NCBI GenBank assembly: GCA_015654675.1
Contig: JAATGM010000020.1
Span: 124,001-188,000 of the forward strand
Origin: Planctomycetota bacterium
GTDB lineage: Bacteria > Planctomycetota > Phycisphaerae > UBA1845 > UTPLA1
Direction of reading: 5' to 3'
Length of the DNA: 64,000 nt
In this document: positions 34,640-40,651 of the stretch, one piece after another
How positions within the stretch are numbered: the stretch's first letter is position 1
Layout of the letters: each line of letters opens with the position of its first letter
Made by a program: the position numbers and the translations under genes
The notes under the pieces: model-generated
Database searches by the model: none
Told to the model about the DNA's origin: nothing
Seen by the model: the letters and a program-made list of their open reading frames with translations, nothing else

Positions 34640-35062
34640 TCACTGATGGTGCAGGAGGTTGCGGATGAAATCAATCGTGAAGAAGACGGTGAGGAATCCG
34701 AGGACGACGAGCGCGAGTGTGGCGATGACGCCGACAATGGTGGCGCCGCTGACATTGCTGTCGCCGTAGGCGGCGAGGATGAGCGGGCGGGCGAGGGTGA
34801 GCATCGCGAGCAGGATCATGGCAATGGTGGGCCAGATGGAGATGGAGTGGGCGTAGCTGTAGATCCAGACGGCGCGGCTGACTTCGTGTTCACGGCCTTC
34901 GCTGGTGATGTAGTGGCCGCCGACGTAGTACTTGCCGTTGGCGATGTGGCCGTTTGCGGCGTCGCCGTTGATGTAGGCGTAGATGATGGTGTACGAAAGG
35001 AAATTGACAAGGCCGATGAGGATGAGCCAGATGCAGAGTTTGGTGCGCGTGCGTCGGTTCAT
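34640..35062 (-). CDS. Small integral membrane protein, unknown function
   Basis: 140 residues with about three membrane spans: LCIWLILIGLVNFLSYTIIY (~9-28), SIWPTIAMILLAMLTLARPL and TIVGVIATLALVVLGFLTVF. A polar loop between span 1 and 2 (NGKYYVGGHYITSEG) may lie outside. I recognise no family. It lies 18 bp after thiG in the same direction, so it is probably co-transcribed with the thiamin genes, but nothing else links it to that pathway. Confidence 0.6.
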   Translation of the reverse strand: MNRRTRTKLCIWLILIGLVNFLSYTIIYAYINGDAANGHIANGKYYVGGHYITSEGREHEVSRAVWIYSYAHSISIWPTIAMILLAMLTLARPLILAAYGDSNVSGATIVGVIATLALVVLGFLTVFFTIDFIRNLLHHQ

Positions 35063-35080: not shown

Positions 35081-35896
35081 TTAGTAGACAATCGTTCCTT
35101 CGGTCGGCGAGGAGGCGGTGGCGTAGAGTTTGCGGGGGATTCGACCGGCGCGGGCGGCGAGGTAGCCGGCGTCGATCGCGTGGGCCATGGCTTTCGCCAT
35201 CGCCACGGGATCCTTTGCCGAGGCGATGCCGGTGTTGAGCAGAACGCCGTCGGCGCCGAGTTCCATGGCAATCGTGACGTCGCTGGCGGTGCCGACGCCG
35301 GCGTCGACGATGACGGGGTAGTCCGGGTCACCGGCTTTCAGCATCTCAAGAATGATGCGGATGTTGTTGGGGTTCAGCACGCCCTGACCGGAGCCGATCG
35401 GTGAGCCGGCGGGCATAACGCTGGTGGCGCCGGCTTCTTTCAGGCGACGAGCCATGGCTGGGTCATCTGAGGTGTAGACGAGGACGTCGAAGCCGTCGCG
35501 CTTGAGCGTTGTGAGGGCTTCAAGAGTGCCGACAGGTTCTGGGAGCAGTGTCTTGGGGTCGCTAAGAACTTCGAGCTTCACCCAGGACGCGCCGGGGTTG
35601 TTGATCTGTTCGAGAATGTCGCGGCCGAGGCGGGCGACGCGGACGGCGTCTTCGGCAGTAAAGCAGCCGGCCGTGTTGGGGAGAATTGTGTAGCGCTTGG
35701 CGTCAATGAAATCGAGGATGTTGCGATTCTCTTTGTCGTATAGGCGCTCGCGGCGAACGGCGACGGTGACGACATCGCAGCCGCTGGCGGTGTGGCATTC
35801 GCGCATGAGTTCGTAAGTTGGGTATTTGCCAGTTCCGACAAAGAGGCGGGAGCGGAAGGAGCGATTACCAATCTTGATCGGGGCCGGGTCGATCAT
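35081..35896 (-). CDS. thiG: Thiazole synthase ThiG
   Basis: 271 residues from ATG 35896, which has GGAGG eight bases upstream (inside the end of thiS); a TTG six codons earlier would overlap thiS. The sequence is a close match to Thi[56 protein letters not shown] with the Schiff-base lysine K107, and APSIGSGQG-like [15 protein letters not shown]. ThiG condenses deoxyxylulose phosphate, dehydroglycine and ThiS thiocarboxylate to the thiazole of thiamin, in the cytoplasm. It follows thiS by 4 bp, a normal pairing. thiH/thiO and thiF are not in the window. Confidence 0.96.
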
Positions 35897-35900
35897 CGCG

Positions 35901-36116
35901 TCAACCTCCGCCAACCAGGGTGACGATTTCGATTTTGTCGCCCGGGTTCAGGGCGATGTTGGCGTATTCAGTGCGGCGGATGTGGCGCTTGTTGATCTCG
36001 GCGGCGAAGGGTGGGCGGGGTTGGCGAATGGCAATGAGACGCGCGAGGTTGGCGCCCGCTTCAAGCGGGACGGTCTCGCCGTTTACTGTGACTTCGATCT
36101 GTTCGGAGACGTTCAT
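35901..36116 (-). CDS. thiS: Sulfur-carrier protein ThiS
   Basis: 71 residues. The beta-grasp fold pattern ([52 protein letters not shown]) fits ThiS. The C-terminal glycine is adenylated and converted to a thiocarboxylate that donates sulfur to ThiG. The family ends in GG; here three glycines are encoded. The gene is placed directly before thiG. Only 33 bp separate it from the gene upstream, so there is no room for a TPP riboswitch here. Confidence 0.9.
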
Positions 36117-36555: not shown

Positions 36556-37437
36556 TCAGCTTTGCTTTGCGCCAGCCTGGTGATAGGCGATGAGTTTGTA
36601 GATCAGCTTGGCGGCGAGGAACTCAGTTTGCATCGAGCCCGGGATGGGCATGACTTCGACCACGTCGGCGGCGATGACGCGGTGGGCGCGGCATACTTCT
36701 CGAAGCAGCTCGGTAATTTGGTACCAGTCGAGGCCGCCAGGTTCTGGGGTGCCGGTGCCGGGCGCATAGGCGGGGTCGAGGCCGTCGATGTCGATCGTGA
36801 CATAGACCGGCGAGTGGAGCATGGAGACGGCGTGGCTGATCCATTCGGTGCCGCGGCGGCACTCGCGGGCAGAGATCGGCGTGAAGCCGCGGGCTTTCAT
36901 GAATTGGTGCTCTTCCTGCGAGTAATTGCGGATTCCGACGGGGACGATTGAGGCACCGAGGTCGAGCACGCGACGCATGGCGCTGGCGTGGGAATAGGGC
37001 GTGCCTTCGTATTCGTCGCGGAGGTCGGCGTGGGCGTCTATCTGAAGGACGCTGAGCTTTTTGTATTTTTCCATGACGGCGCGGACGAGGCCGCTGGTGA
37101 TTGAGTGTTCGCCGCCGAGGCCGATGAGAAACTTTCCGTCGGCGACGGGCTTCTTGGCGGCGGCGAAGACGGCATGGACCTGGTCCTTGGGGCCGGACAT
37201 TTCCGGTGCGACTTGCTCAAGCGTGGCGATTCCGGGCGACGTGAATTCGCAACCCAATTCCTCGTCAAAGAGTTCCACTTGTTGGCTGGCGGTGATAATG
37301 GCGCGCGGGCCGTTGCGCGTGCCAACCTGGAAGCTGGTGGTGCTGTCGTAGGGGATTGGCAGAATGGCGTAGCGCGCGCGGCGGTAGTCGCTTTGGGAGG
37401 GCGGGAGGCCGAGAAAGTTGTCCGGGATGGTCGGCAT
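36556..37437 (-). CDS. speB: Agmatinase (ureohydrolase family)
   Basis: 293 residues, typical size. All binuclear manganese ligands are visible: H111 in GLGGEHS, D134-A-H136-A-D138 in LQIDAHADLRD, and D216-I-D218 in YVTIDIDGLDP. The agmatinase-like DPAYAPGTGTPEPGG follows. The family includes agmatinase, arginase, guanidinobutyrase and formiminoglutamase; GTRNGPRAI and EPGGL favour agmatinase-type enzymes. The reaction is agmatine to putrescine and urea, in the cytoplasm. The gene starts 3 bp after the deoxyhypusine-synthase homologue, making a polyamine operon likely. Acting on an aminopropyl-agmatine instead is a reasonable alternative. Confidence 0.88.
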   Translation of the reverse strand: MPTIPDNFLGLPPSQSDYRRARYAILPIPYDSTTSFQVGTRNGPRAIITASQQVELFDEELGCEFTSPGIATLEQVAPEMSGPKDQVHAVFAAAKKPVADGKFLIGLGGEHSITSGLVRAVMEKYKKLSVLQIDAHADLRDEYEGTPYSHASAMRRVLDLGASIVPVGIRNYSQEEHQFMKARGFTPISARECRRGTEWISHAVSMLHSPVYVTIDIDGLDPAYAPGTGTPEPGGLDWYQITELLREVCRAHRVIAADVVEVMPIPGSMQTEFLAAKLIYKLIAYHQAGAKQS

Positions 37438-37440
37438 GGC

Positions 37441-38634
37441 TTAGCGCTTTGTCGTGAGAAGATGGTCGGCGCCGGCCTTTTTCAGCTCGGCGAGGAGCGT
37501 GCGGTTGCCGCGTGCGTCGGCAGTCAGCGCTCGCACGAGTTCGTTGATTCGCGGGTAGAGGCGGCGCGGTTTGCGTGGTTTGTTCCGAATGAGGACGTAT
37601 TGGGCGAGGAGCGGCAGGGTGAGCGACGCGCAGGAATAGACGACGACGTTGTCACGGTGCGCGTCTTTGATTTTGCCCCAACTGCGGGCTTCCTGCGGCG
37701 TCGCACCGGACAGTCCGCCCCAGTGCGGCGAATCGGTTGTGAGCTGGATGAAGTAGTCGTGGCCGCCGCCGGTGCGGTCGTGCAGGATTTGGTGAAGGGT
37801 GGGCTGCGTTTGAAGGTAGAAATTCTTGGGCGAGCCACCGCCGACTTCGATGACGCCGTTCTTCTCTGCGTCGCGGACGATGGCCGCTGATTCGATCACA
37901 TCGGCAATGGGGTCGACCATCAAGTCGCGACCGAAAAGACGGGGGACGATGAGGTTCATGCCGATCGAGCTATCGCCGGGCGAACTCGTGTAGACCGGGA
38001 CGTCATAACGGTGGGCGGCTGCGACGAGCGACTTGGCGGCTGACGGGGCGTGCTTTTGGATGAAGCGGCCGAGGTGCCAATGGAGGTAGGCCGTCGACAT
38101 CGGCTGCGAGTGATCAATCTCGCGCAGGGCGCGGAGGATGATCTTGTCGGTGGCTTCGAGCGTGCCGAGTTCCTCGATGTAGGTGTCGTAAATGCGGGCG
38201 ACGCCGGCGTCGGCCAGGTCGTTGTCGTCGACCGACCAATTGCCCTGGCGAACGGGAAGATTGAACGTGCGATGCATGTCGTGATAGAGGTTGGCACCGG
38301 TGGCGATGATCCAGTCGATGAAGCCGGCTTCGATGAGGGAGATGAGGACGCCCTGCATGCCGATCGGGGTCATGGCGCCGCTGAGGGTCAGGCCGACGGT
38401 TGCGCCGGCTTTGAGCATGCGCGAGTAGAGCTCGCAGGCCTCGGCGAGACGGCGACCGTTGAAGCCGCTGCCACCGAAGCAGTTGTCGATCATGTCGGCG
38501 ACGTCTTCGTTGCCGCGAAGGTGGAGCGGCTCGACTTGCTTGCCGGTCATGAAGTGCCCGCACTTGTGCTTGCCCGGCGAATGGCCGGTTGGATGTTTCG
38601 ATGCTCCGTTGTGATGTCCGTGCTTCTTCGCCAT
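37441..38634 (-). CDS. Deoxyhypusine synthase homologue (bacterial polyamine-modifying enzyme)
   Basis: 397 residues from ATG 38634, with GGAGG five bases upstream; 169 upstream in-frame codons are not protein-like. The NAD-binding/DHS fold is obvious: LTLSGAMTPIGMQGVLISLI, DWIIATGANLYHDMH, VPVYTSSPGDSSIGMNL, VIEVGGGSPKNF, and TDSPHWGGLSGATPQEARSW with GKIK, carrying the catalytic lysine K321. Archaeal and eukaryotic enzymes transfer the aminobutyl group of spermidine to eIF5A; bacteria lack eIF5A, and some bacterial homologues make homospermidine instead. The first ~30 residues are an unusual histidine-rich extension (HGHHNGASKHPTGHSPGKHK). Co-location with agmatinase supports a polyamine role; the precise product is uncertain. 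Confidence 0.88.
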   Translation of the reverse strand: MAKKHGHHNGASKHPTGHSPGKHKCGHFMTGKQVEPLHLRGNEDVADMIDNCFGGSGFNGRRLAEACELYSRMLKAGATVGLTLSGAMTPIGMQGVLISLIEAGFIDWIIATGANLYHDMHRTFNLPVRQGNWSVDDNDLADAGVARIYDTYIEELGTLEATDKIILRALREIDHSQPMSTAYLHWHLGRFIQKHAPSAAKSLVAAAHRYDVPVYTSSPGDSSIGMNLIVPRLFGRDLMVDPIADVIESAAIVRDAEKNGVIEVGGGSPKNFYLQTQPTLHQILHDRTGGGHDYFIQLTTDSPHWGGLSGATPQEARSWGKIKDAHRDNVVVYSCASLTLPLLAQYVLIRNKPRKPRRLYPRINELVRALTADARGNRTLLAELKKAGADHLLTTKR

Positions 38635-39079
38635 TTCGCCTCCGGTGCGTTCGTCGCGCGGTTCAGACTTTGAGTCGCGGATTATACGGGCGTGCGGAGA
38701 TGCGGCTACGGATGGAGTTGAAGTGAGTAAAAGTGTGGAACCGGCTGCCGTTGCGGCAGCCGGTTCCACGGCGCGGTGTTGGGAAGGAAAGAAAGGATTG
38801 CGTTTTGTCGAACCGGGCTCGAAGCTAACTTCGTATCGTCCGGCTGACGTGGGGGTAATTAGCAAAGAGTGTGCCAAACTCGCGAGCGGCATTGGCCCGT
38901 TGAAAAGCGGTAATTGCGGCGGTTTTGGGGACATGACTGCGTAAGCGTTGGGTAAACTTGCATATTTGACTGGTAGCAAATGCGCAGGAATTACCCATGC
39001 GCAGCTCAGGTGGCAGGATGGCATTGGCAGACGGCAGTTTCTCGGGCTTGCGCAGATCCTGGGAATTCGGAGCGCGTGG
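38635..39079. other. Divergent 445-bp intergenic region
   Basis: The region lies between the minus-strand polyamine/thiamin genes and the plus-strand HyuB gene. It contains a very stable hairpin at 38735-38769 (separate entry) and, near 38980-39005, the short inverted repeat TGCGCA around GGAATTACCCA. It is less GC-rich on the right side, where promoters for hyuB would lie. No gene is supported; the in-frame extension of hyuB back to 38948 is not protein-like. Confidence 0.5.
38735..38769. repeat. Perfect 16-bp inverted repeat with 3-base loop
   Basis: GTGGAACCGGCTGCCG and CGGCAGCCGGTTCCAC are exact complements separated by TTG. On the minus strand the stem is followed by ACTTTTAC, a weak U-tract, so it could be a terminator or attenuator in the leader of the deoxyhypusine-synthase transcript, about 100 bp before its start. 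On the plus strand no U-run follows. Alternatively it is a dispersed REP-like element. Confidence 0.7.
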
Positions 39080-40651
39080 ATGAGCGAAGTGACGCAGAGT
39101 GCGGGACAGCTCGAAGTGTTTCGCCATCGGCTGGAAGCCATCGCGGAGCAAATGGGCGAGACACTCGCGCGGACGGCTTACTCTGCAAATATTAAAGAGC
39201 GGCGTGATCATTCGTGCGCGGTGTTTGATGCGAACGGGCGCTTGCTTGCTCAGGCAGCGCACATTCCGGTTCACCTTGGATCGATGCCGGCGAGCGTGGC
39301 GGCGGCGTTGGAGATGGCGCGGCCACAGGCGGGCGATGTCATCCTGCTCAATGATCCGTACGCCGGCGGGACACATCTACCGGATGTCACGGTGGTGTCG
39401 CCTGTCGTGTGGGGCGAGCGGATTGTCGGCTTTGTTGCGAATCGGGCGCATCATGCGGACATTGGCGGGAGCGTGCCGGGATCGATGGGCGTCACGACCA
39501 GCATTGAGCAGGAAGGTGTGCGGCTCGGACCAACGCGGTGGTTTCAAGCTGGTCGCGAAGACGTGGCATTTCGCGAGCGGTTTCTCGGGGCAGTCCGCGG
39601 TCCGGTTGAGCGGCTTGGGGATTTGCGGGCGCAACTTGCGGCGAATGAGATCGGGCAGCGGCAGATGGGCGGCTTGTTTGATCGCTATGGCGCGATCGCG
39701 TTCGAATCGCTTTCAGCGGAATTGATGGCGTATGCGGAGCGGCTGGTGCGTGCGACGCTGGCTTCGATTCCGGCAGGGAGCTACTCGGCAGAGGACTATC
39801 TGGATGGCGATGGGTTGACGGATGCGAGGATTCGAATCGCGGTCCGGCTGGATGTTTCGCATGACGGCATCCTGGCGGACTTCGAGGGGACGTCGGCGCA
39901 GGTGGCCGGTTGCGTGAACTGTCCATTAGCCGTGACGCGCTCGGCGGTAGGGTACGTAATTGCGTGCCTCGTCGGGGATCGGTTGCCGCACAACGCTGGT
40001 ATGTTTGCGCCGATTACGGTGCGCGCGCCGCGCGGCTGCGTCGTGAACGCGGAGTATCCGGCGGCGGTGGCGGCGGGAAACGTGGAGACGAGCCAGCGGA
40101 TTGTGGATGTTGTGTTGCGAGCGCTTTCGACCGCCGTGCCGGAGCGGATTCCGGCAGGTGCGGCGGGGACGATGGCGTCGATTTCATTTGGCGGCGTCGA
40201 TCCGACGACTGGGCGGGAGTTCACCTATTACGAGACAGTCGGCGGCGGAATGGGGGCGTGGTCGGAGGGCGACGGCGAATCGGCCGTGCATACGCACATG
40301 ACGAACACGTTGAACACGCCGATTGAGGCACTCGAATCGGCGTTTCCGGTTCGGGCGATTTGCTACGCGATTCGACGAGGGAGCGGCGGCGCGGGGGGAC
40401 AGTGCGGCGGAGATGGAATCGTGCGCGAAATTGAAGCGCTGGTACCGCTGACGGCGTCGGTGTTGGCGGACCGGGGTCGCGGTGGCGGCGGTGGTTTGCA
40501 GCGGGGCGGCGACGGGGCTGCGTTGCGGGTGGCGGTGGCTTCACGCGACGGCCGCGTGCGAGAATTACCATCCAAGGCGACGTTTGAGCTCGGCGTTGGG
40601 GATCGATTGCGGATCGAAACGCCCGGCGGCGGCGGATTCGGATCGATATAG
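39080..40651 (+). CDS. hyuB: Hydantoinase B/oxoprolinase subunit (HyuB family)
   Basis: 523 residues from ATG 39080, typical for HyuB (500-590). Characteristic stretches are FRHRLEAIAEQMGETLARTA, SANIKERRDHSCAVFDANGR, GDVILLNDPYAGGTHLPDVT, FVANRAHHADIGGSVPGSMG and AGNVETSQRIVDVVLRAL, ending with GDRLRIETPGGGGFG. HyuA/HyuB pairs hydrolyse N-methylhydantoin, 5-oxoproline or acetone-type substrates with ATP; HyuB needs its HyuA partner. No hyuA is adjacent. ATP-dependent oxoprolinase exists also as fused chains, but this one is not fused. Role: cytoplasmic amide or lactam metabolism with an undetermined substrate. Confidence 0.88.
   Translation: MSEVTQSAGQLEVFRHRLEAIAEQMGETLARTAYSANIKERRDHSCAVFDANGRLLAQAAHIPVHLGSMPASVAAALEMARPQAGDVILLNDPYAGGTHLPDVTVVSPVVWGERIVGFVANRAHHADIGGSVPGSMGVTTSIEQEGVRLGPTRWFQAGREDVAFRERFLGAVRGPVERLGDLRAQLAANEIGQRQMGGLFDRYGAIAFESLSAELMAYAERLVRATLASIPAGSYSAEDYLDGDGLTDARIRIAVRLDVSHDGILADFEGTSAQVAGCVNCPLAVTRSAVGYVIACLVGDRLPHNAGMFAPITVRAPRGCVVNAEYPAAVAAGNVETSQRIVDVVLRALSTAVPERIPAGAAGTMASISFGGVDPTTGREFTYYETVGGGMGAWSEGDGESAVHTHMTNTLNTPIEALESAFPVRAICYAIRRGSGGAGGQCGGDGIVREIEALVPLTASVLADRGRGGGGGLQRGGDGAALRVAVASRDGRVRELPSKATFELGVGDRLRIETPGGGGFGSI

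Follow-up and report, generated by a model that had tools for sequence, protein, structure and literature searches.

SpeY is a bacterial homospermidine synthase that resembles deoxyhypusine synthase (DHS). Burnat et al. 2018 (cited in PMC9992855) described it in Anabaena, and it converts putrescine to homospermidine (PMC9992855). The speY gene clusters with speB, and one planctomycete speY has been described (PMC10407285). Some genomes or clusters with relatives of SpeY form putrescine via aguA/aguB, with no ureohydrolase involved (PMC9992855, PMC10407285). In Thermus, CdmS couples two agmatines and SpeB turns the product into homospermidine via N1-aminobutylagmatine (PMC10981699). Human DHS binds spermidine via Asp243, Asp316, Glu323 and Trp327, with catalysis by Lys329 and His288 (PMC9117371). 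Archaeal DHS has Thr and Leu at the positions of human Asp243 and Asp316 and still uses spermidine (PMC7773846). Sym-homospermidine is a major polyamine in Pirellula staleyi, Gimesia and other planctomycetes, all from lineages outside the class studied here (PMC3035237, PMC4334474). SpeY homospermidine synthases, speB-speY clusters and the agmatine-coupling variant, caldomycin synthase, are already published. A bacterial speY-speB pair is therefore ordinary and well explained, such pairs being common and already described. The novelty implied by the original prediction did not hold, as bacterial SpeY (PMC9992855, PMC10407285) and the route from CdmS and a ureohydrolase via N1-aminobutylagmatine (PMC10981699) had both been reported.

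The window, a 64,000-nucleotide stretch of a planctomycete contig, contains a speY-like gene (37441..38634, minus strand) encoding a putative DHS-fold homospermidine synthase of 397 aa with a catalytic Lys321. Directly downstream is speB (36556..37437, minus strand), which encodes an agmatine ureohydrolase (agmatinase) of 293 aa with all six Mn-ligand positions present. The stop-to-start gap is exactly 3 bp, and the two genes are thus arranged as originally described. Pfam matches to Deoxyhypusine synthase (E 2.8e-76) and to the Arginase family (E 2.2e-72) exclude a chance match for either gene. The DHS homologue starts with the ATG at 38634, which is preceded by GGAGG-CGAA. A longer frame of 566 aa (37441-39141) was also in the ORF listing, but the start at 38634 is favored by sequence conservation and by the ribosome-binding site. 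The N-terminal ~27 residues (38554-38634, minus strand) are His/Lys-rich, and residues 1-19 had a pLDDT below 50 in the AlphaFold model. This N-terminus is possibly metal binding or disordered. Downstream of speB are genes for ThiG (35081-35914, minus strand) and for a 140-aa protein with no Pfam match (34640-35062, minus strand). This block is conserved, as speB of the relative L007 also precedes genes for ThiG and the 140-aa protein.

The top NCBIfam model for the DHS homologue was NF001980, "homospermidine biosynthesis protein", with a score of 424 bits against a cut-off of 450. The lead of this model was wide, as the best DHS model reached 257 bits and CdmS (NF002699) 169 bits. The clade mates L007 (416 bits) and L010 (424 bits) also fell below the cut-off while the main-group SpeY proteins L017 (506 bits) and L039 (524 bits) passed it. 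As these three clade proteins scored under 450 bits and the two main-group proteins above, the protein was classed as SpeY-like, from a sister clade, and not as a strict equivalog. A tree built from 67 relatives put it in a ten-member clade (SH-aLRT 98) beside the main SpeY-type group. CdmS proteins formed their own clade (support 98) and true DHS structures a separate branch. Only the clade itself was relied on due to weak deep branches and the presence of long branches. The clade is Phycisphaerae-centered and SpeY-like, and is slightly new. Three metagenome-assembled genomes titled Actinomycetota or Actinomycetes (L010, L012, L013) carry the clade gene. These titles look wrong, as the core sequences are identical to those of L122, L125 and L127, whose genomes are assigned to the class of the window. 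The AlphaFold model of the protein had a mean pLDDT of 84.5 and matched human DHS with a Z of 34 over 306 residues. A sequence search of solved structures gave no match named SpeY or CdmS.

The original prediction stated that both enzymes keep their catalytic residues, and this was confirmed. Lys321, in the WGK motif, is the counterpart of human Lys329 in the alignment. Human Glu323 and Trp327 are also retained (Glu315 and Trp319), while Asp243, Asp316 and His288 are replaced by Met226, Leu308 and Asn271. The changes at Asp243 and Asp316 alone are not diagnostic, given that the archaeal enzyme with Thr and Leu there still uses spermidine. Loss of His288 was common to the properly aligned bacterial SpeY-type and CdmS-type sequences, and the archaeal and human DHS structures retain this residue. 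The active site has the SpeY pattern, which in human numbering is Met/Leu at 243, Asn at 288, Gln at 292 and 305, Leu at 316, Glu323, Trp327 and Lys329. In a 24-sequence alignment these positions all fall in invariant columns. The protein shares the fold, the catalytic Lys and the GGGSPKNFYLQTQP and GGLSGAT motifs with SpeY (NF001980), as well as Met and Leu at the Asp243 and Asp316 positions and a frequent speB neighbor. It differs from the main SpeY group in its separate clade, in an identity of ~41-51% to the rest and at the position of human Asp342, which we take to be an NAD contact. All 23 distinct clade members have Cys here (motif YSC[AST]S), whereas Asp is present in the rest of the properly aligned SpeY-type sequences. 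The clade residue at human D313 is Trp. The genome also encodes, at another locus (L002:883-1845, C51), a 320-aa DHS-fold paralogue of GSU2086 type, which had no equivalents of human Glu323 and Trp327 in the alignment.

SpeB scored 263.6 bits on the agmatinase model TIGR01230 (cut-off 174.3). Its metal ligands, at all six positions used by the family, are H111, D134, H136, D138, D216 and D218. The genome encodes one further PF00491 protein, which is arginase-like, leaving SpeB as the sole agmatinase. Its predicted physiological substrate is agmatine, and its sequence may also be compatible with caldomycin or another guanidine.

Of the genomes sampled, 94 of 149 from the phylum and 109 of 150 from the same class had DHS-fold homologues, and such a gene is therefore not unusual in a bacterium. 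At the 23 distinct clade loci, speB was directly downstream in 12, a pyruvoyl-dependent arginine decarboxylase gene was directly upstream in 14, and both were present in 10. The three-gene operon of pyruvoyl arginine decarboxylase, DHS homologue and SpeB is frequent in the clade. Of this arrangement, only the DHS-SpeB part is retained in the window and in L007/L113, its nearest relative. The two-gene core is shared with published speB-speY clusters containing a SpeD-derived arginine decarboxylase (PMC10407285). Those clusters have SpeDA, whereas relatives of the window have PvlArgDC and the window's own genome carries SpeA at an unlinked site. In the main SpeY group (L039-L086; Verrucomicrobia, Acidobacteria, Phycisphaerae) a PLP-dependent LysA/ODC-fold decarboxylase of ~379 aa usually follows speY. 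At L043:3971-7056 one speB lies between two different DHS-type genes, whose products share 45 and 32% identity with the window protein, and a pyruvoyl arginine decarboxylase gene is located upstream.

The polyamine genes of the genome were surveyed in an assembly of 4.93 Mb that is 96% complete, on which all gene absences rest. SpeA (647 aa, L004) is encoded at a site unlinked to the pair and is one of two PF02784 proteins, the other being LysA-like. The names SpeA, LysA and arginase were assigned by reading the translated sequences rather than by running a family scan on each protein. No SpeD, NspC, CASDH/HSS-type dehydrogenase, OKR/AAT-fold decarboxylase or pyruvoyl arginine decarboxylase was found in the 96%-complete genome. 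A single weak PF03435 match was rejected as a CASDH/HSS enzyme as it lay inside a sugar-nucleotide gene. A SpeE-like match was weak and partial, in an 812-codon frame, and the usual spermidine route was ruled out for it as SpeD was not found. The full alternative spermidine route raised as counter-evidence in the original prediction was therefore looked for in the genome and not found. An agmatine deiminase route was also rejected. The only PF04371 protein, of agmatine-deiminase/PAD type (L088:1192-2952, C28), is unlikely to be a cytosolic AguA, given its putative signal peptide and its C terminus, which has a long extension with a repeat-like end. With SpeD, CASDH/HSS, NspC and the other decarboxylase routes not found, the speY-speB pair is the only triamine route seen.

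The pair probably makes sym-homospermidine, with SpeB acting first and SpeY second. From the family, residues, genome content and published relatives we infer the substrates, step order and product, and action of the DHS homologue on a small amine to give homospermidine, as originally proposed, is the best-supported reading. SpeA would decarboxylate arginine to agmatine, and SpeB would remove urea to give putrescine. The SpeY-type enzyme would then dehydrogenate one putrescine using bound NAD. Lys321 would hold the butyl-imine, which would pass to a second putrescine, and the enzyme would reduce the coupled product to homospermidine. The SpeB-first order is favored because the protein is SpeY-like and SpeY relatives also adjoin aguA/aguB, which supply putrescine without a ureohydrolase. 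Counting against this route are the score of 424 against 450 bits on NF001980, the clade-wide Cys at Asp342, the clade members with no adjacent speB and the origin of the published polyamine data in other planctomycete lineages. The pair points to triamine synthesis being possible in bacteria of planctomycete classes without SpeD or carboxyspermidine genes. The predicted route fits the long use of homospermidine as a chemotaxonomic marker in the phylum. The clade offers a clean comparison of which residues set the choice between putrescine and agmatine in DHS-fold enzymes.

A reversed, Thermus-like order is unlikely but is the best placed of the alternatives. The DHS homologue would couple two agmatines, or agmatine and putrescine, before the ureohydrolase acts. 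The product of two agmatines would be 1,9-bis(guanidino)-5-azanonane (caldomycin), whose guanidino groups would be removed via N1-aminobutylagmatine to give homospermidine. This order has been demonstrated for CdmS and SpeB of T. thermophilus (PMC10981699), where a DHS fold is likewise paired with a ureohydrolase and leads from agmatine to homospermidine. Agmatine would be the local feedstock, since the operon here pairs the gene with one for a ureohydrolase and in relatives also includes an arginine decarboxylase gene. Met226 and Leu308 are nonpolar, as are the corresponding Phe and Leu of CdmS. However, membership of the CdmS family was rejected as the protein scored 169 bits against a cut-off of 500 and fell outside the CdmS clade in the tree. 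Identity to CdmS-family proteins was ~27-34% and the pocket differs, with Met in place of Phe, Gln in place of Asp at human Asn292 and Trp in place of Asp at human Asp313. The SpeY relatives associated with aguA/aguB and lacking a ureohydrolase suggest that the family takes putrescine (PMC9992855, PMC10407285).

A further idea, also unlikely, is that the Phycisphaerae clade is not plain SpeY but independently became an enzyme that couples agmatine ahead of ureohydrolysis, or changed its nicotinamide-nucleotide binding (Asp342 to Cys). This would have occurred in an arginine decarboxylase-DHS-SpeB operon running from arginine to homospermidine via guanidino intermediates.

Use of another amine pair (imported spermidine and putrescine, or diaminopropane) to give a different polyamine, with SpeB merely supplying putrescine, is improbable. 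Trp at human D313 and Cys at D342, which set this clade apart, would fit such a change, but an internal spermidine route was not found in the genome, and the relatives and the chemistry of the lineage favor homospermidine. That the protein is a true deoxyhypusine synthase, acquired from archaea or eukaryotes and acting to modify a translation factor, is highly improbable and a hypusination role was rejected, since the protein shares the fold and the catalytic Lys, Trp and Glu but has Asn for His288, ~23% identity to human DHS, scores far under the cut-offs of the DHS family models and a position apart from the branch of DHS structures, and no TIGR00037 match for eIF5A was found in the 96%-complete genome, in line with the eIF5A absence originally assumed.

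The region upstream of speY was also searched. No riboswitch was matched in Rfam and a promoter scan upstream of speY found nothing useful. A hairpin with a perfect 16-bp stem and a short T run (38735..38769, minus strand) lies ~100 nt upstream of speY between divergent genes. Its RNA fold was -34.9 kcal/mol (z -8.3). The next gene upstream reads away from speY in both the window and L007 and is not the same gene, being of hydantoinase B type in the window and a carbonic-anhydrase-like ORF in L007. The position of the hairpin is kept in L007/L113 with compensated stem changes, and an imperfect one is present in L115. The hairpin may be a leader terminator or attenuator, a lead that comes from two genomes.
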